Shown: piece by piece, positions 1,191 through 53,904 of the stretch
Position numbering within the stretch: the first letter of the stretch is position 1
Layout: every line of letters starts with the position of its first letter
Source: a virus
Length of the DNA: 64,000 nt
IMG/VR virus record: IMGVR_UViG_3300036834_000189
Location: 1-64,000 of that record
Direction: 5' to 3' (one strand)
Translations under genes and position numbers: made by a program
Notes under the pieces: model-generated
The model's database searches: none
What the model was told of the DNA's origin: nothing
The model's input: only the letters and a program-made list of their open reading frames with translations

Positions 1191-1418
1191 TCAAAATTGG
1201 ATGACGATGCCGAGGCACGGCAGCGGCAGCACATAGAGCCGCCGCCGCTCGCGATCCCAGAACAGACCGACCCACAAGTCGTACCACGCGATCACGACAG
1301 ACCAGCGGCGGCGTGGAGGCGACGCGGTGACCGCGCCGCCCCACCCCACCACTTCCCACCGCAAAGGCTTAAGGTCGTGCATTCGGGTTCCGGCTCGTGT
1401 AATGATTTTGTTGGGCAT
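1191..1418 (-). CDS. Small hypothetical protein (YDLWVG motif)
   Basis: Leftward 75-residue ORF, convergent with the lipoprotein gene. I chose the ATG at 1418 because AAGGG sits six nucleotides upstream; an earlier start at 1451 is possible. The C-terminal half (IAWYDLWVGLFWDRERRRL then VLPLPCLGI) looks like a conserved phage family of unknown role: aromatic-rich strands followed by a Pro/Leu turn. It is isolated between rightward genes. Confidence 0.6.
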   Translation of the reverse strand: MPNKIITRAGTRMHDLKPLRWEVVGWGGAVTASPPRRRWSVVIAWYDLWVGLFWDRERRRLYVLPLPCLGIVIQF

Positions 1419-1580
1419 GGCTGACCCTTTCCCTACGGTCGGCGATGTCAAGGGCGGCGCGGTGCTTCAACATCACGTCGTCCAGCTCGGGAAAGTGTAG
1501 CATAACATTTCTATGCTGCGAGTGGGGGACGCAGCCTAGCTCTTCTGGGTTCCCCCATCCCTCAGAACGGAGCAGTGCAA

Positions 1581-45578: not shown

Positions 45579-47312
45579 ATGACTGTACAAATTCTCGTTG
45601 GGCACGTTCTTTCGCGTCTCAGAGAATTGCCTGACGAGAGCGTGCACTGCGTCGTCACCTCGCCGCCATACTACGGCCTTAGATCCTACGGCGTAGAGCC
45701 GCAGGTATGGGGCGGCGGTAAGGATTGTCGACACGATTTTCAAATGGAGGAGATCGGCACCGAGATCGGAAAAGGCAACTGGACACAAGCGACGGGCGGT
45801 TCTGACTGGGCCGCCGGTGTGCGTAACAAGGTGACGGCCGAGCATCGCGAACCGATTCGCGAGGTCAAAGAGCGTGGCTTCTGCCGCCGCTGTGGCGCCT
45901 GGCGCGGCGACCTGGGGCTGGAGCCGACAGTCGAGTTGTACATCGCCCATCTGGTCGAGGTGTTTCGCGAGGTCCGCCGGGTGCTGTGCAAGGACGGCAC
46001 GCTGTGGGTGAATCTGGGCGATTCTTACGCTGGCGGCGGTGGGTTTTCGGCTGGAGCGCCATCATCGGAGCATAGCAAATCCGGGAAGTACGGCACGCTT
46101 GGCGCATTGAAGAGCGGCGGCATTAAACCAAGCGGTACGATCAAGCCGAAGGATCTGTTGCTAATGCCGGCGCAGCTGGCGCTGGCGCTGCGGGCCGATG
46201 GGTGGGTGCTGAGATCGGAGATTGTGTGGGCGAAGGCTGCGCCTATGCCAGAAAGCGTGACCGATCGGGCCACGTGCGCGCATGAGAAAATCTTTATGCT
46301 CGCGAAATCGAATCAAACGACATTCTGGACGCACCGCGACCACGCAGGATCGAGGACGAAGCCGGCGCCGGATTATCGTTGGGTCGACCACGACAACGAT
46401 GATACGGAGACGGACATCGAGCCACCAAACTGGCGCACGGAGCCTGCCGCAGTCAAAGTGCCGGCACACCCAAAGAATTCGTTCAGCTCGGATACTGACG
46501 ACTCCAATAGAGCGCCAGGCATGTCGTGGGCTGGGCATTTCCGCAAGCGCTGGTCACGCATCAACCTCTGGGCCGCGCACGATTATTTCTTCGACAACGA
46601 GGCGGTGAAGGAAGAGGCGGAATATCCGAATGGGCCGAATGCACCCGACGCCATCAAGTCGCCCTATGGGCAGGGGTTTATGCGCCGGGCGCCGCTGATC
46701 AGCGAGAACCGCAAGGATCTGAGATCGGATATTGAGAGCCGTCACCGATCGTCAATCGATGGCGGCCAATCGCTACAGGTCAAACCGGACGGCAAGCGCA
46801 ACATGCGCAACGTCTGGCACCTCGGCCCCGAGCCCTTCCCCGAGGCGCACTTCGCAACATACCCGACCGAGATCCCGCGCCGCGCGATCCTCGCCGGCAC
46901 CAGCGCTAAGGGTGTCTGCCCGAAATGCGGGGCGCCTTGGGTGAGGGTGGTTGAGAAGAAATCATTCGCTCGCGCGATGGATCGGCTTTACGGCGGAACG
47001 CTCGGTCACAATCCGAGCGGTACGGTTCCCGGCAGTAATACGCGCGGCTGCCCAGATCCGGAGACGCAGACCATTGGCTGGCGCCCCTCCTGCTCCTGCG
47101 ATGCGGGCGATCCGCAACCGGCCACAGTGCTCGACCCGTTTCTCGGCAGCGGCACTACTGCGATGGTCGCCAATTGGTTTGGTCGTGATTGCATCGGCAT
47201 CGAATTGAACGAGGAGTATGCGGTAATGGCTGAATACCGCTCCCGTGGAGAGCCGCCGCCGCCGTCCGAATTGGCTGTTCCGACCGCGTTCGGCGCGCTG
47301 CTGCATTGGTGA
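45579..47312 (+). CDS. DNA methyltransferase (N4/N6 amino-type, beta class)
   Basis: 577 residues. Catalytic motif IV VTSPPYYGLRSYG near residue 30 (TSPPY, typical of N4-cytosine or N6-adenine enzymes) and SAM-binding motif I at the end (TVLDPFLGSGTTAMVANWF), the permuted beta-class order. Large inserts contain CRRCGAW and CPKCGAPW zinc pairs. It may protect phage DNA from restriction or change host methylation patterns read by GcrA; no cognate restriction enzyme is visible. Specificity cannot be read from sequence, and similarity to CcrM was not established. Confidence 0.88.
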   Translation: MTVQILVGHVLSRLRELPDESVHCVVTSPPYYGLRSYGVEPQVWGGGKDCRHDFQMEEIGTEIGKGNWTQATGGSDWAAGVRNKVTAEHREPIREVKERGFCRRCGAWRGDLGLEPTVELYIAHLVEVFREVRRVLCKDGTLWVNLGDSYAGGGGFSAGAPSSEHSKSGKYGTLGALKSGGIKPSGTIKPKDLLLMPAQLALALRADGWVLRSEIVWAKAAPMPESVTDRATCAHEKIFMLAKSNQTTFWTHRDHAGSRTKPAPDYRWVDHDNDDTETDIEPPNWRTEPAAVKVPAHPKNSFSSDTDDSNRAPGMSWAGHFRKRWSRINLWAAHDYFFDNEAVKEEAEYPNGPNAPDAIKSPYGQGFMRRAPLISENRKDLRSDIESRHRSSIDGGQSLQVKPDGKRNMRNVWHLGPEPFPEAHFATYPTEIPRRAILAGTSAKGVCPKCGAPWVRVVEKKSFARAMDRLYGGTLGHNPSGTVPGSNTRGCPDPETQTIGWRPSCSCDAGDPQPATVLDPFLGSGTTAMVANWFGRDCIGIELNEEYAVMAEYRSRGEPPPPSELAVPTAFGALLHW

Positions 47313-47316
47313 AACT

Positions 47317-48447
47317 GTGAAAGCGCGCGACCTACATCGCGACCTCGATCTGTTTCGCCTGCTGGTCAGCCGCAACGCGATGTCACCGGCGTACCGCGCG
47401 CTGGTCCTGGCCAAGGACCATGTCCGCGGCTGCGCGCCGTTCGGCGCGATGCGCTGCGCCGCGGCGCTGGGGTTTGCCGACGAAGTCTGGGTCGACGGCG
47501 ACGACTTTCTCAAGGTTATCGCGTCCTTGCCGGACAAAGAGTTCACCGCCGAGATCCGCGACCACGCGCTGCACTGGGAATGCCTCGAAGATGCGCATGA
47601 AGGTCGAGCGCAGCGCGTGCTGATCCGCGGGCATCTGGCTTTGATGACCGAGCAGCTCGACGTGCCGCCGCCGGTTTACGACCATGACTTGTCGAGCGAT
47701 CCGGTCTCCGAGCATTTTGGTGCCGGGCTCGAATTAGGATCATTGTCGTGCGGGCCGATAGCGATGCGCACGCTCGGGCTCTATGGCGTGCAGATCAAGA
47801 ATGTCGGCGACCGGGCTTATGCCTATGCCAGCGACGACACGACAATGTCGGGATGCTCGCTCGGCGGCCCGCTGTTCACCAGCGATGGAGCGCCCGGCAT
47901 CATCACGTTGTCGCTCAACGCCACGGCGCTGCTGGCAGCGGTGGTCAAGCGCGACAAGACCGCTTATCTGGCGGCTGACAACGCGTCGCTCTACTGCCTG
48001 ACCGAGAACGGTGGCGTGCTGGCGACCGAGCTGCTGCTCAACCAAGCCGATTCGCTGCGCGGCGACATCGGTGCGCTGCTCGCCCGGTTTGCCGGTTCGC
48101 AGCACGCGCTGCGCCTGCATCGCGACGCGGTGGCGGCGTTTCTCCGCCGGGCCGAGGCATTGGCCGAGCAGCAGCGCGACGCGGTTGTCGAATTCTCCGT
48201 GGTCGATGGTGAAACCCGTTTGGCATTTAACGAGCTGACCGGGTCGACCGAAGAATACCATGTGGTCCCCGACAGCGACCCCGATCTCAACATCCCCCCG
48301 GTACGGGTGGATGCCGACCGCATCGCCAAGGCGCTCGGTCACGCCGACCGGATGGTGTTTGATTATGCCGTCAGCGACAAGATTCTGATCCTCCGCGGGG
48401 ACCACGATTTTGCTTTTGCCATCTTTGGCAGGCGCGATCGTGAATAG
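47317..48447 (+). CDS. Possible beta-type sliding clamp
   Basis: 376 residues; GTG 47317, 4 nt after the methyltransferase stop. Length fits DnaN (about 370). Features suggesting a clamp: EVWVDGDDFLKVIASLPD, AYLAADNASLYCLTENGG, DADRIAKALGHADRMVFDYA and the ending SDKILILRGDHDFAFAIFG, similar to the last strand of beta clamps. The sequence is very divergent, so this is a hypothesis supported by the presence of a DnaX-like clamp loader. Alternative: an unrelated beta-rich protein. Confidence 0.5.
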   Translation: MKARDLHRDLDLFRLLVSRNAMSPAYRALVLAKDHVRGCAPFGAMRCAAALGFADEVWVDGDDFLKVIASLPDKEFTAEIRDHALHWECLEDAHEGRAQRVLIRGHLALMTEQLDVPPPVYDHDLSSDPVSEHFGAGLELGSLSCGPIAMRTLGLYGVQIKNVGDRAYAYASDDTTMSGCSLGGPLFTSDGAPGIITLSLNATALLAAVVKRDKTAYLAADNASLYCLTENGGVLATELLLNQADSLRGDIGALLARFAGSQHALRLHRDAVAAFLRRAEALAEQQRDAVVEFSVVDGETRLAFNELTGSTEEYHVVPDSDPDLNIPPVRVDADRIAKALGHADRMVFDYAVSDKILILRGDHDFAFAIFGRRDRE

Positions 48448-48826
48448 CCGTAGAAATCGCCGCCCGCGCCCGCTGAGCCGCCTCTCTGACGGGAGCGCGG
48501 CATACATGGCTCAGCCCGCCTCGTGCCTCCCAGCGTCAGGAGAACGGCTTGTAGAGCATTTTGTCGGTAATTTTTACAGGGTGGAAACAGCCGGCTTGCG
48601 CGAATGGTGTGCCGGCGCAACGGCTCGGTGTTCAAGCACCCGATTCGTGCCCGATTCGTTCTGTAAAAAGATTTTACACTCGCGTTTAACGAGTGCCCGG
48701 CACAACCCGGAAAATCCCAGCAAATCGGTCATTTTTCGCAAATGGCATAGAGCTTGCTCTAAAGGCTTGCAGGGGTTGTTCCGTGCTCTATTGTGGGGCG
48801 CGTGAGACAATGAAACAGAGGATGTC
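48448..48826 (+). promoter_or_regulatory. Noncoding gap with promoter for the PEP-CTERM gene
   Basis: 379 nt without a convincing gene. A promoter fits TTGCAG (48767-48772), 16 nt, TATTGT (48789-48794), about 30 nt before the ATG at 48827, which is preceded by AGAGGA. A GTAAAA/TTTTAC inverted repeat lies at about 48662-48676. The own promoter makes the next gene an independent unit. Confidence 0.55.
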
Positions 48827-49546
48827 ATGAAAAATCTGTTGCTCGCGGGTGCGGTTGTTACCAGCGTTTGCGCCGCCGGGTCATCCGCTCGCGCTAGTGA
48901 GATCTTTTTCGGCTCGTTTCCAACGCCGGGCGGGTGCGGCGCGATCGTTGCCGGCGACCAAGGCGCGGTTTGCCCCTCGGGATTGCAATTTGCCGGCGGC
49001 ACCGCGGGCACCTTGACAGTCAGCGGGACTCTTGGCAATCCCAACACCAGCGCTGTGGCTTTCACGACGTTCAAGGGTACGCAGAATGCGCTCGACGAGC
49101 AGGGCATCGGCGAGAACAACCTAGGTCCCCCGGCCCCGTGCAACACCACCGACTGCGAGATCGGCGGCGGCGCTTCGGTGGTGGTCGCTGCGGGCATGCC
49201 GCTCAGTCAGGTCGATGTTATCGTCAGTTCGGTGCAGGGCTTCGAGTCGTTCAACGTCTGGGCGGGCAATTCTCGGGGCTCTTTGGTCGAAATCGCAAGC
49301 GGGCTGAACGCCAGCAATTGCGTTTTGTTCCCTGGTCAGACCGACGTGTGTGTAGTCGATCTGACGACACCGGCCACGACGATCGCGATCGAGTCGAACA
49401 ATTCGCTCGTGGCCGCAGCTGACGTGCTGTTGGCGGCGGTCTCGACCGCGGCACCGACCGGCGTCTCCGAGCCCGGCTCGCTGGCGATCCTTGGCGGCGC
49501 GTTACTGTCTCTCGGCTGGATGATTCGACGGCGCTGGCAGTCGTAG
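48827..49546 (+). CDS. PEP-CTERM-like secreted protein
   Basis: 239 residues. Signal peptide at residues 1-23 (KNLLLAGAVVTSVCAAGSSA), a beta-rich mature domain with a few Cys, and a C-terminus with the tripartite PEP-CTERM sorting pattern: SEPGSLAILGGALLSLGWMI followed by RRRW (Pro motif, hydrophobic span, basic end). The PEP motif is slightly altered (SEPGS). In bacteria with exosortase EpsH/XrtA these proteins are cleaved and anchored in the envelope or exopolysaccharide. Unusual in a phage; may be a lysogenic-conversion cargo gene. Confidence 0.75.
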   Translation: MKNLLLAGAVVTSVCAAGSSARASEIFFGSFPTPGGCGAIVAGDQGAVCPSGLQFAGGTAGTLTVSGTLGNPNTSAVAFTTFKGTQNALDEQGIGENNLGPPAPCNTTDCEIGGGASVVVAAGMPLSQVDVIVSSVQGFESFNVWAGNSRGSLVEIASGLNASNCVLFPGQTDVCVVDLTTPATTIAIESNNSLVAAADVLLAAVSTAAPTGVSEPGSLAILGGALLSLGWMIRRRWQS

Positions 49547-49618
49547 GCTGCGGCAGCGCTTCTTTATGTGCTACGCCTCGATTGGGGCGCGGATTGAAAC
49601 CACTAAGCCACGAGCGGT

Positions 49619-49699: not shown

Positions 49700-49915
49700 A
49701 TGCGTTGGACGATGCGCCGCAAAGCCAACGTGATCGAGGCGATCGAGGAAGGCCGGATCGACGAGGCAACGGCGCTGCGGCAGTATGAGCTTTCTCGGGA
49801 AGAACTGGCCGAGTGGCGGAGGTATTACGACCCGCATGGTGTGACGGGACTAAGGGCGACGTGGACGCAGCGCTACCGCCTGGCAGACACCAAGCGGCGC
49901 AATGGCGAATCCTAA
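49700..49915 (+). CDS. sciP: SciP-like CtrA inhibitor (DUF1153), copy 2
   Basis: 71 residues from ATG 49700. RWTMRRKANVIEAIEEG, then LRQYELSREELAEWRRYYDP and HGVTGLRATWTQRYR, the same DUF1153 pattern as copy 1 at 11935 but clearly divergent from it. SciP is an antagonist of the cell-cycle regulator CtrA. Directly downstream of array 7. Two different SciP genes in one phage suggest two targets or times of action (inference). Confidence 0.85.
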   Translation: MRWTMRRKANVIEAIEEGRIDEATALRQYELSREELAEWRRYYDPHGVTGLRATWTQRYRLADTKRRNGES

Positions 49916-50174: not shown

Positions 50175-50250
50175 GCCCAGGTAGCTCAGCTGGTAGAGCA
50201 CCGGATCTGTAATCCGCGAGGCGTCGGTTCAAATCCGGCCCTGGGCGCCA
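50175..50250 (+). tRNA. tRNA, anticodon probably UGU (Thr)
   Basis: 76 nt with encoded CCA. Acceptor GCCCAGG/CCTGGGC, D-stem GCTC/GAGC, T-arm GTCGG-TTCAAAT-CCGGC. The anticodon stem is CCGGA/TCCGC (one C-C mismatch) and the loop TCTGTAA places UGU at positions 34-36, giving Thr; position 33 would be C instead of the near-universal U, so the anticodon call is uncertain. The discriminator base is G. Confidence 0.85.
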
Positions 50251-51233: not shown

Positions 51234-51363
51234 TGTTTGTCAACTCCTCCTCGTGGCCGGGGGGGTAAGGAACGGCAGCTGCCGCCATCGTAAATCGATT
51301 CAGTAGGTTCTGTACAGAGGTGCAGTTTGAAACGTGTATAAGTAGGTGGTTGGGAGGGGACCG

Positions 51364-53904
51364 ATGGGATTCTTTTTTCCTGAGGGGATTGCGGTTCCGC
51401 AGCGCGTCGAGCGGCGTGAGCGCATGGTCAAGTTCAGAAGCAACGAGCCCTCTGCCCGGGGCTGCGACGCCTGCACATTGCAGAAGACTTGGGTGCAGCT
51501 GACCACGCCGCAGATGCCGATCGACGGGGCAGAGCGCAGCGATATTCTGGTCGTCGGCGAGGGTCCCGGCGAAGAGGAAGACTTCCGGGGCCGACCGTTT
51601 GTCGGTCGAGCCGGTGCGCTGCTTCGCAGAGTCATGCCGATGCGCCAGAGCGAGCGGATCGCGATGACCAACGCCGTGCGCTGCCGCCCGATGACCGCCA
51701 GCCGCGACAACCGCGTTCCGACTGCCCGCGAAGTCGAGGCCTGCTCGATCCATCTCGAAAACGACATTGCCGCCGGTAATTACACCGCGATTTTGGGGCT
51801 GGGCGGCGCCCCGCTGGCGCGGTTTTTCACTGAAGCGACGATCACCCAGTCGCATGGGCTCAAGTTTCCGGTCGCGATCGGCGGCAAGGTATTGTGGTAT
51901 TATCCAACCTTGCATCCCTCCTTTGTCAATCGCACCGGCGGCGACAAGTCGCCGATGCTCCCGGTGTTCGAGAACGACATCAAGACGTTTTTTCGCGATG
52001 TCGACCATTGGCCGAAGCCGGTCATCGAGAACGTCACTGCCAAATCCGTGACGTGCGCCTATGACGAGGACGAGGCCGCCGCGCTCTGTCGGCGGATGCT
52101 CGCCGCTGGAAAGCCGATCGGGTTCGACATCGAGACCAACGATCTGCGCCCCAACGTCAAGGGCGCGGCGATCATGACCGCGGCGGTTTCCGATGGCGCG
52201 GCCACGGTGGCTTGGCCGGTCAGCCACCCCGAACTGCCCAATGATTGGGGACTTCCGCTCGCGCTCAACATGACGCAGCGCTTGCGCTGGGTGGCGCATC
52301 ATGCCGGGTTCGAGCTGGCGTGGCTGACCGAGCACGCCCGCCGCCAGTCGATCCCCTGGGAGCCGGCAGCCGGGTTTGACGATTCGATGGTCGCGGCGCG
52401 CCTGTATCAGCGCCGCGCGTCGTGCCTCAATCTCGGGGTCTTGACCCGATTGTACTGCGGTGTCAACGTCAAGCGCCTCTCCGACATCAACCCGAACAAG
52501 ATCGCCGAGACCCCGCTGTCGGAAGTGCTGCCGTACAACGGACTGGATGCGTGGGGCTCGTGGCAGATCCTCGACCGGCTCGGCGACCGCGTCGACCCCG
52601 ACAATTACCGATCGATCATCGAGACGATCCAATCGGTCACCGAGATGCAATTGCTCGGTCTCGATGTCGACCGCGCCGCGGCGACGGAATTGCTCGGCGA
52701 GTGGCAGGGACGGGCGCAAGCCGCAGCGTTGCGTGCGATGACGGTGTACGAGGTCAAGCGCTATACCAAGGATCGCGAGTTCAACATCGGGTCCAACGAG
52801 CAGGTCGGCGAAGCCCTGGTGACCTATGGCCGGGTGACCTTGCCCAAGACGCCGGGCGGGCAATACTCGACCGACGACAAAACATTGACCGATGCCGCGC
52901 CCGACAACCCGCTGGTCAAGGACGTGCTGGAATACCGCCATGCCAAGAAGATGGAGTCGACTTATGTCCTCCCGGTCCTCGCCGCCGCCGAGCGGTTTGT
53001 CGACGGGCGGCTGCACCCGGTCTACAGCACCAGCTTGACCCATACCCTTCGGTTATCGTCCGAGGACGTGAACATTCAGAATTTTCCAAAGCGCAAAGAC
53101 CACGAGCTGCGCCGCCCGGTCGTCCCGCCGAAGGGCTGTCTGTGGGCATCGGCGGATTGGGGGCAGTTGGAAGCCCGAGTCTATGGGATGGCGTCGAAAG
53201 ACCCCGCGCTGTGCGATTCGATCATCGCCGACGAGGACATTCACAGCTACTGGCTCAATGTTATCCTCGAAGCCTATCCGCCCTACTTCGACCGGCTCGC
53301 CAGCAAGGTCACGCCCAACGACACCGAAGCCCAGATCCGCAAGGGCGGTCGCGACATCATCAAAAGCGACTTTGTCTTCGCCACGTTTTTTGGGACTACG
53401 GCGCGCAACGTCAGCGAACGCACCGGCATCCCCCCAGACATCGCCACCGAGGTCCTGGGATTGTTTTGGCGACGCTATGCCGCCGCTCATCGGTGGCTCA
53501 AAGGCCAGCGTTCAGGCTATCGCGACAACGCGGCGGTGCGCAATCTGTGTGGGGTCGAGCGCTACGGGATCATGCTCGGAAACGAGCCGATCAATCACCC
53601 GATCCAGTCGACTGCGGCGCGCCTCGTCCTCGAAGCACAGAACGAGGTGTTCGGTCTGGCGAAGCGGCACGGCGATCTTCACTTCATGCCGCGGATCAAT
53701 ATTCACGATGATCTCGTCTTTGCGTTGCCCGACGACAGCGACCTGATGATCACCTACATCAAAGAGATCTCCAAGGTGTTGACCAAGGTCCGGTTCGACT
53801 GGCAGATCGTACCGCTGAAGGTTGAGTGGAAGGTCGGGGCGAATTGGGCCGATCTCGAAGCGGTCCACGAGTTCACCGGCGACTACCGCCGCAAAGCGCG
53901 ATAA
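51364..53904 (+). CDS. Family A DNA polymerase with N-terminal uracil-DNA-glycosylase-like domain
   Basis: 846 residues from ATG 51364 behind GGGAGGGG. Residues ~25-215 resemble a UDG superfamily domain: CDACTLQKTW, VVGEGPGEEEDFRG and the terminal TLHPSFVNR. A 3'-5' exonuclease-like region carries GFDIETNDLRPN and ends in YNGLDAW. The polymerase domain shows motif A SADWGQLEARVYG, motif B KGGRDIIKSDFVFATFFG and motif C NIHDDLVFALP. This is the main phage replicase. HDD replaces the usual HDE of family A motif C. UDG-polymerase fusions are known in some phages such as SPO1. Confidence 0.92.
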   Translation: MGFFFPEGIAVPQRVERRERMVKFRSNEPSARGCDACTLQKTWVQLTTPQMPIDGAERSDILVVGEGPGEEEDFRGRPFVGRAGALLRRVMPMRQSERIAMTNAVRCRPMTASRDNRVPTAREVEACSIHLENDIAAGNYTAILGLGGAPLARFFTEATITQSHGLKFPVAIGGKVLWYYPTLHPSFVNRTGGDKSPMLPVFENDIKTFFRDVDHWPKPVIENVTAKSVTCAYDEDEAAALCRRMLAAGKPIGFDIETNDLRPNVKGAAIMTAAVSDGAATVAWPVSHPELPNDWGLPLALNMTQRLRWVAHHAGFELAWLTEHARRQSIPWEPAAGFDDSMVAARLYQRRASCLNLGVLTRLYCGVNVKRLSDINPNKIAETPLSEVLPYNGLDAWGSWQILDRLGDRVDPDNYRSIIETIQSVTEMQLLGLDVDRAAATELLGEWQGRAQAAALRAMTVYEVKRYTKDREFNIGSNEQVGEALVTYGRVTLPKTPGGQYSTDDKTLTDAAPDNPLVKDVLEYRHAKKMESTYVLPVLAAAERFVDGRLHPVYSTSLTHTLRLSSEDVNIQNFPKRKDHELRRPVVPPKGCLWASADWGQLEARVYGMASKDPALCDSIIADEDIHSYWLNVILEAYPPYFDRLASKVTPNDTEAQIRKGGRDIIKSDFVFATFFGTTARNVSERTGIPPDIATEVLGLFWRRYAAAHRWLKGQRSGYRDNAAVRNLCGVERYGIMLGNEPINHPIQSTAARLVLEAQNEVFGLAKRHGDLHFMPRINIHDDLVFALPDDSDLMITYIKEISKVLTKVRFDWQIVPLKVEWKVGANWADLEAVHEFTGDYRRKAR

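Follow-up and report, generated by a model that had tools for sequence, protein, structure and literature searches.

A large virus record carries a gene for a predicted secreted protein with a PEP-CTERM sorting tail. Comparison of the sequences makes it probable that this gene is host-derived and that the phage expresses it through the PEP-CTERM control circuit of its host. The gene lies in the window, that is, the whole stretch of 64,000 nucleotides analysed here, which is part of a 116,206-base virus record. Support for this explanation includes the true phage context of the gene in both records and its occurrence in a podophage that is otherwise unrelated. None of the papers searched reports a PEP-CTERM protein encoded by a phage.

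The first-pass annotation had taken a signal peptide, together with a terminal SEPGS, hydrophobic span and RRRW, as the marks of a PEP-CTERM protein. This assignment held: the open reading frame lies where Table 1 places it, and its product scored 16.4 bits with the TIGR02595 (PEP_CTERM) model, for which the cut-off is 16. The profile match that had been anticipated came from TIGR02595 and did not come from PF07589, with which the protein scored 16.2 bits (E 0.012), under the gathering score of 20.7. When the records were searched in all six frames, the window tail reached 20.6 bits for TIGR02595. The leader, judged by eye, looks like a Sec-type signal peptide (MKNLLLAGAVVTSVCAAGSSARA/SE), and the C-terminus reads VSEPGSLAILGGALLSLGWMIRRRWQS, with SEP where the canonical motif has PEP. 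Taken alone, the tail is therefore a borderline PEP-CTERM match. The ectodomain without the tail matched no NCBIfam family in a profile search, and the structure model of the protein was poor (pLDDT 44) and unfit for a fold search.

Table 1. Features of the PEP-CTERM locus, in window coordinates
Feature	Position	Strand	Sequence	Remarks
Distal motif 1 (PrsR/PEP-CTERM box)	48562..48578	+	TGTCGGTAATTTTTACA	17 nt, TTTACA at end, as published
Proximal motif 1, palindromic	48662..48678	+	TGTAAAAAGATTTTACA	17 nt, TTTACA at end; 64-nt spacer to sigma-54 site
Sigma-54 (-24/-12) promoter	48743..48758	+	TGGCATAGAGCTTGCT	68 nt before ATG; top sigma-54 score of the record
PEP-CTERM protein gene	48827..49546	+		239 aa; ATG at 48827, stop codon ends at 49546; profile match and homologue comparison
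Signal peptide	48827..48895	+		Predicted cut after ARA (residue 23), by sequence
PEP-CTERM sorting tail	49463..49540	+		SEPGS, hydrophobic span, RRRW; TIGR02595 above cut-off, PF07589 just under
CRISPR type I-C repeat-like solitary unit	49574..49600	+	CGGATTGAAAC (handle)	6-bp stem, 4-nt loop, 11-nt handle; starts 28 nt past the stop codon
SciP-like (DUF1153) CtrA-inhibitor homologue	49700..49915	+		Next gene downstream; PF06627 68.7 bits

The homologue in a second record (IMGVR_UViG_3300036834_000083, hereafter L002) is 78% identical to the window protein over the aligned length. Its tail, IPEPSSLALLGAGLLGLGVAWRRRHNN, has the canonical PEP, and it passed the cut-offs of both models (PF07589, 31.7 bits; TIGR02595, 23.6 bits). 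Because the homologue passes both, we accept the window tail as PEP-CTERM, and at the level of sequence these scores settle the doubt over its identity. In the alignment, ARA is conserved despite the divergence of the leader around it, and all six of the cysteines in the mature part are shared. The tail could in principle be a mere C-terminal membrane anchor and no exosortase substrate, making the product a plain membrane-anchored phage protein. The window copy does fall below the Pfam cut-off with its SEP, and LPXTG-type anchor models also match it weakly. We regard this alternative as quite improbable, given the score and the canonical PEP of the L002 copy and an upstream region of the type seen before PEP-CTERM genes.

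Comparison of the two genes by the NG86 method gave dN of 0.194 and dS of 0.772. The ectodomain was the most constrained part (dN 0.14, dS 0.78; dN/dS about 0.18), while the tail, at dN 0.51, has changed almost without restraint apart from its retention of EP, SLA, the hydrophobic span and RRR. These values suggest purifying selection on the ectodomain, part of which may predate capture and have acted in bacteria. The gene was present in three records, two of which represent one phage: the window phage itself, a contig of the same phage (L001) that is identical to the window across 16.7 kb, and L002. An assembly chimera was considered and is unlikely, as the assembly of L001 gave the identical sequence and a second phage has a homologue. 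TIGR02595 at E 0.01 matched none of the 48 other viral records. No relatives of the protein were found among annotated phages and plasmids, nor in bacterial genomes by a peptide-pattern search. The tail used as a query by itself also gave no phage or plasmid match, probably through the action of the low-complexity filter.

The gene is preceded by a gap of 379 bp. An own promoter had been proposed for it, and the gap indeed contains a control region of the sigma-54/PrsR type; a consensus scan of the same 379 bp for a sigma-70 promoter returned no site, and the sigma-54 assignment was preferred. The sigma-54 site was the best in the 116-kb record, scoring 15.0 of 19.7, and the next best scored 13.6. 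In proteobacteria, the cis-site of PEP-CTERM genes contains a 17-nt motif 1 that ends in TTTACA and is sometimes repeated, followed after a mean of 62.8 nt (SD 10.6, range 32–92) by a sigma-54 motif, which in turn lies a mean of 71 nt (SD 38.5, range 23–221) from the start codon (Haft et al., 2006; PMC1569441). According to the same study, this site stands behind large intergenic gaps, usually before single-gene operons, and the PrsR/sigma-54 cis-site was found only in PEP-CTERM-positive proteobacteria. The window has two copies of motif 1, then a spacer of 64 nt and the sigma-54 site, from which the ATG is 68 nt away; the motif-1 boxes were matched to the consensus as described in the published text and not to aligned bacterial sites. 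The spacings are an independent check, because the sigma-54 site had been found before Haft et al. (2006) was consulted. A simplified pattern (TTTACA, 32–92 nt, TGGC-N7-TTGC) occurred once in the record, at this position, compared with 0.013 occurrences per shuffled record.

This fit to a cis-site known only from PEP-CTERM-positive proteobacteria (PMC1569441) supports the earlier suggestion of a PEP-CTERM system in the host. The predicted control region implies a host with PrsK/PrsR and, presumably, an exosortase; no exosortase was found in the window phage record or in L002. The homologue in L002 has no sigma-54/PrsR region upstream. Elsewhere, an RpoN-dependent PEP-CTERM gene with a predicted enhancer upstream is known in Aquincola (PMC9850573), and DAP-chip has shown binding to PEP-CTERM targets by the D. 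vulgaris PrsR homologue DVUA0057 (PMC3333781). Alphaproteobacterial megaplasmids, which were sought as a training source for the promoter, contained no PEP-CTERM genes.

Another phage record (L139, IMGVR_UViG_3300049198_000022) contains a complete PrsR/sigma-54 control region of the PEP-CTERM type at 585–748 on the minus strand. Its layout is that of the window (TGACGGAATTTTTTACAG, TGTAAAGTTTCTTTACA, 63 nt, TGGCACGACGCTTGCA), and a strong form of motif 1, TG[AT]CGG..TTTTTACAG, is common to the two phages. The 46-kb record of L139 has no PEP-CTERM gene, and its control region may be either a phage promoter that borrows the same PrsR/sigma-54 circuit or a leftover.

The placement of the PEP-CTERM protein on a real phage was confirmed by the terminase, portal and major head protein genes of the record, which also encodes a head protease, tail sheath and tape measure; these all lie in the half of the record outside the window. 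Because the tail sheath and its companions are encoded there, the record is that of a large contractile-tailed phage. The replication genes are in the window half and encode helicases, a DnaB-like helicase, an SbcC-like subunit, a clamp loader, a single-strand DNA-binding protein and a DNA polymerase of family A that carries a fused uracil-DNA-glycosylase domain. The polymerase open reading frame is at 51346–53904 (+), with the uracil-DNA-glycosylase superfamily domain at its N-terminus. The open reading frame directly 5' of the gap (47245–48447, +) gave a weak match (E 0.00036) to phrog_947, a phage DNA polymerase processivity factor. A tRNA-Thr (tgt) gene is located at 50175–50250 (+) in the window, just past the SciP gene, and a tRNA-Asp (gtc) gene at 1365–1461 (+) of L009, in the other half of the record. 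L002 encodes a T7-like head-tail adaptor and major head protein and is a different phage, a podophage; the 11.8-kb stretch of it that was compared has no DNA in common with the window except the PEP-CTERM gene.

Neither a tyrosine integrase (PF00589) nor a serine recombinase (PF00239) was found in the 116-kb record, which may be incomplete, and neither was found in L002. The window phage looks virulent, not temperate, as far as its genes indicate, and the lysogenic conversion that the first-pass annotation had offered as one role is disfavoured by the lack of PF00589 and PF00239 in this possibly incomplete record. For a virulent phage, which as a rule times its own transcription, a sigma-54 promoter that depends on a host signal is odd. 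Such a promoter is what simple capture would leave, and the gene could be a recently acquired passenger of no benefit to the phage, brought in with its bacterial-type regulatory region by illegitimate recombination. The small number of carriers (three records, two of them the same phage) agrees with this, and the purifying selection between the homologues could date from before capture, in bacteria. We nevertheless consider a passenger unlikely: the gene is carried by a contractile-tailed phage and by an unrelated T7-like podophage, with an ectodomain dN/dS of about 0.18, repeat units stand beside it in both, and tightly packed phage genomes usually lose junk.

These repeat units are short hairpins that resemble CRISPR repeats. 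The window unit reads CGCCTC-GATT-GGGGCG-CGGATTGAAAC and contains the sole GGATTGAAAC of its record, where 0.1 would be expected. Two such units directly abut the ATG of the homologue in L002 and contain the only GGATTGAAAC sites of that record (0.02 expected). The chance of a random element falling within 50 bp of the gene is about 0.001 for the window record and 0.003 for L002, both calculated post hoc. An intrinsic terminator was rejected as an explanation of the downstream hairpin, which has no T-run and whose tail is a type I-C handle. In other viral contigs, 28 of 111 distinct sites of the GGATTGAAAC 14-mer follow a perfect stem that is 6 bp or longer, compared with 2.7% of background sites, and the stem count peaks where the end of the stem meets the 11-nt tail exactly. 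An Acidisoma (alphaproteobacterium) type I-C array, with cas5c/cas8c/cas7c adjoining, has the repeat GTCGCTCCTCGCGCGGGAGCGCGGATCGAAAC, laid out as the window unit is, with a stem that differs from that of the window unit. In both phages, the hairpins with a type I-C handle are intergenic and outside any array, one in the window record and two adjacent in L002. On the strength of the stem statistics in viral contigs and the layout of the Acidisoma type I-C repeat, the units in the two records look like type I-C solitary repeat units; the SRUFinder rule for such units is an identity of 90% or more to a known CRISPR repeat. Hairpins with CGGATTGAAAC were also seen in L068 (3579–3615 and 5182–5212), L011 (5882–5911), L059 (2079–2105), L064 (minus strand) and L105 (5933–5961), with varied stems and between co-directional phage genes. 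They are often 0–30 nt from a stop or start codon, and one phage may have more than one.

Some solitary repeat units are RNA anti-CRISPRs (Racrs), and acrIC5 shares one transcript with RacrIC1, which lies 11 nt downstream of it (PMC10651486). By analogy, the window unit may act as a Racr. It is like RacrIC1 in being a solitary type I-C repeat-like hairpin with an 11-nt handle, intergenic and on the same strand just 3' of a small phage gene; it is unlike RacrIC1 in that the neighbouring gene encodes a PEP-CTERM protein and not an Acr, and in that the two units of L002 are upstream of the gene. The locus might accordingly serve counter-defence in the main, with the unit an active Racr and the PEP-CTERM gene either a source of promoter and transcript or a second, envelope-level defence against competing phages. 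Several findings are in line with this: the sole GGATTGAAAC sites of both records flank the PEP-CTERM gene, the hairpin stops right where the 11-nt handle begins and belongs to a class that is enriched in viral contigs, the layout is that of a real Acidisoma type I-C repeat, and the acrIC5–RacrIC1 transcript is a precedent. Others weigh against it, as the Rfam CRISPR-DR9 model matched the window unit weakly (22.7 bits; gathering score 45), the stem is unlike that of the Acidisoma repeat, the second L002 unit folds no better than shuffled sequences, no known Acr is adjacent, and the pairing rests on two phages, as a search of 48 other viral records gave no PEP-CTERM gene. We hold a mainly counter-defensive role to be possible and somewhat doubtful. 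A broader proposal joins the two parts into a mobile cassette of phages that infect exosortase-bearing bacteria, in which a PEP-CTERM protein under PrsR/sigma-54 control and a type I-C repeat mimic would be made on one transcript, and a surface change and an RNA anti-CRISPR would be switched on together in the EPS/biofilm state of the host. This is speculative and, in our judgement, rather unlikely.

The product of the next gene downstream resembles SciP. Neither this gene nor the repeat-like unit figured in the first-pass annotation of the PEP-CTERM gene. The SciP-like product scored 67.4 bits with the NCBIfam SciP model, under the cut-off of 100, and all of its plasmid matches were in alphaproteobacterial genera; one Erythrobacter phage has a homologue. 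Genome contigs that were probed with SciP for a host gave no relative. An N6/N4 DNA methyltransferase gene lies near the SciP-like gene, at 45579–47312, and interference of the two with the alphaproteobacterial cell-cycle circuit is possible. The distribution of SciP homologues, the promoter of PrsR type and the type I-C unit together lead us to infer an alphaproteobacterial host, which would have a type I-C CRISPR system besides an EPS/PEP-CTERM system. The putative repeat units in two unrelated phages likewise suggest a shared host with a type I-C CRISPR system.

The locus agrees in many respects with the PEP-CTERM/exosortase (EpsH) system under PrsK/PrsR/sigma-54 (PMC1569441). The window protein has a predicted signal peptide and the PEP-CTERM tail, and its single gene is preceded by a gap of over 200 bp with a repeated motif 1, a spacer of 60-odd nt, a sigma-54 site and about 70 nt to the start. 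It differs in being phage-borne among replication genes, in having SEP for PEP, and in an ectodomain outside the described PEP-CTERM families. Flocculation-associated PepA (NF033554) of Aquincola (PMC9850573) is a similarly short secreted PEP-CTERM protein with an RpoN-dependent promoter. The whole-protein similarity to PepA was weak (19.1 bits for the window protein, 33.8 bits for L002), far under the 80-bit cut-off, and there was no match without the tail, so the window protein is not a member of this family.

In the explanation that we favour, expression of a host-derived PEP-CTERM protein through the host circuit, PrsR would bind the motif-1 boxes and activate sigma-54 RNA polymerase. The protein would be exported by Sec, with its tail retained by the inner membrane and then processed by an exosortase of the host, and the ectodomain would pass to the outer surface or the exopolysaccharide layer. 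Its most likely role would then be to change the surface or EPS once a cell is infected, and with it adsorption or aggregation, so as to exclude superinfection, mask receptors or keep infected cells within aggregates; PepA of Aquincola lowers released exopolymer and raises bound exopolymer (PMC9850573). As the phage looks virulent, not temperate, the surface effect would be exerted during infection rather than through lysogeny, and surface remodelling or superinfection exclusion during infection is the best candidate function by analogy. The mRNA may run on into the type I-C repeat-like unit, a possible Racr, as in the acrIC5–RacrIC1 bicistron.

That both of these unrelated phages have a CRISPR-repeat-like unit next to the gene points towards a role in counter-defence. 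If the unit and the gene do form a cassette, the promoter would let the phage sense the surface physiology of its host. The role of PEP-CTERM proteins at the surface is so far poorly known, and the phage gene offers a testable case. If the explanation is true, a phage that taps the PEP-CTERM regulon of its host would represent a new coupling of infection to the biofilm/EPS state in floc- and biofilm-forming bacteria.
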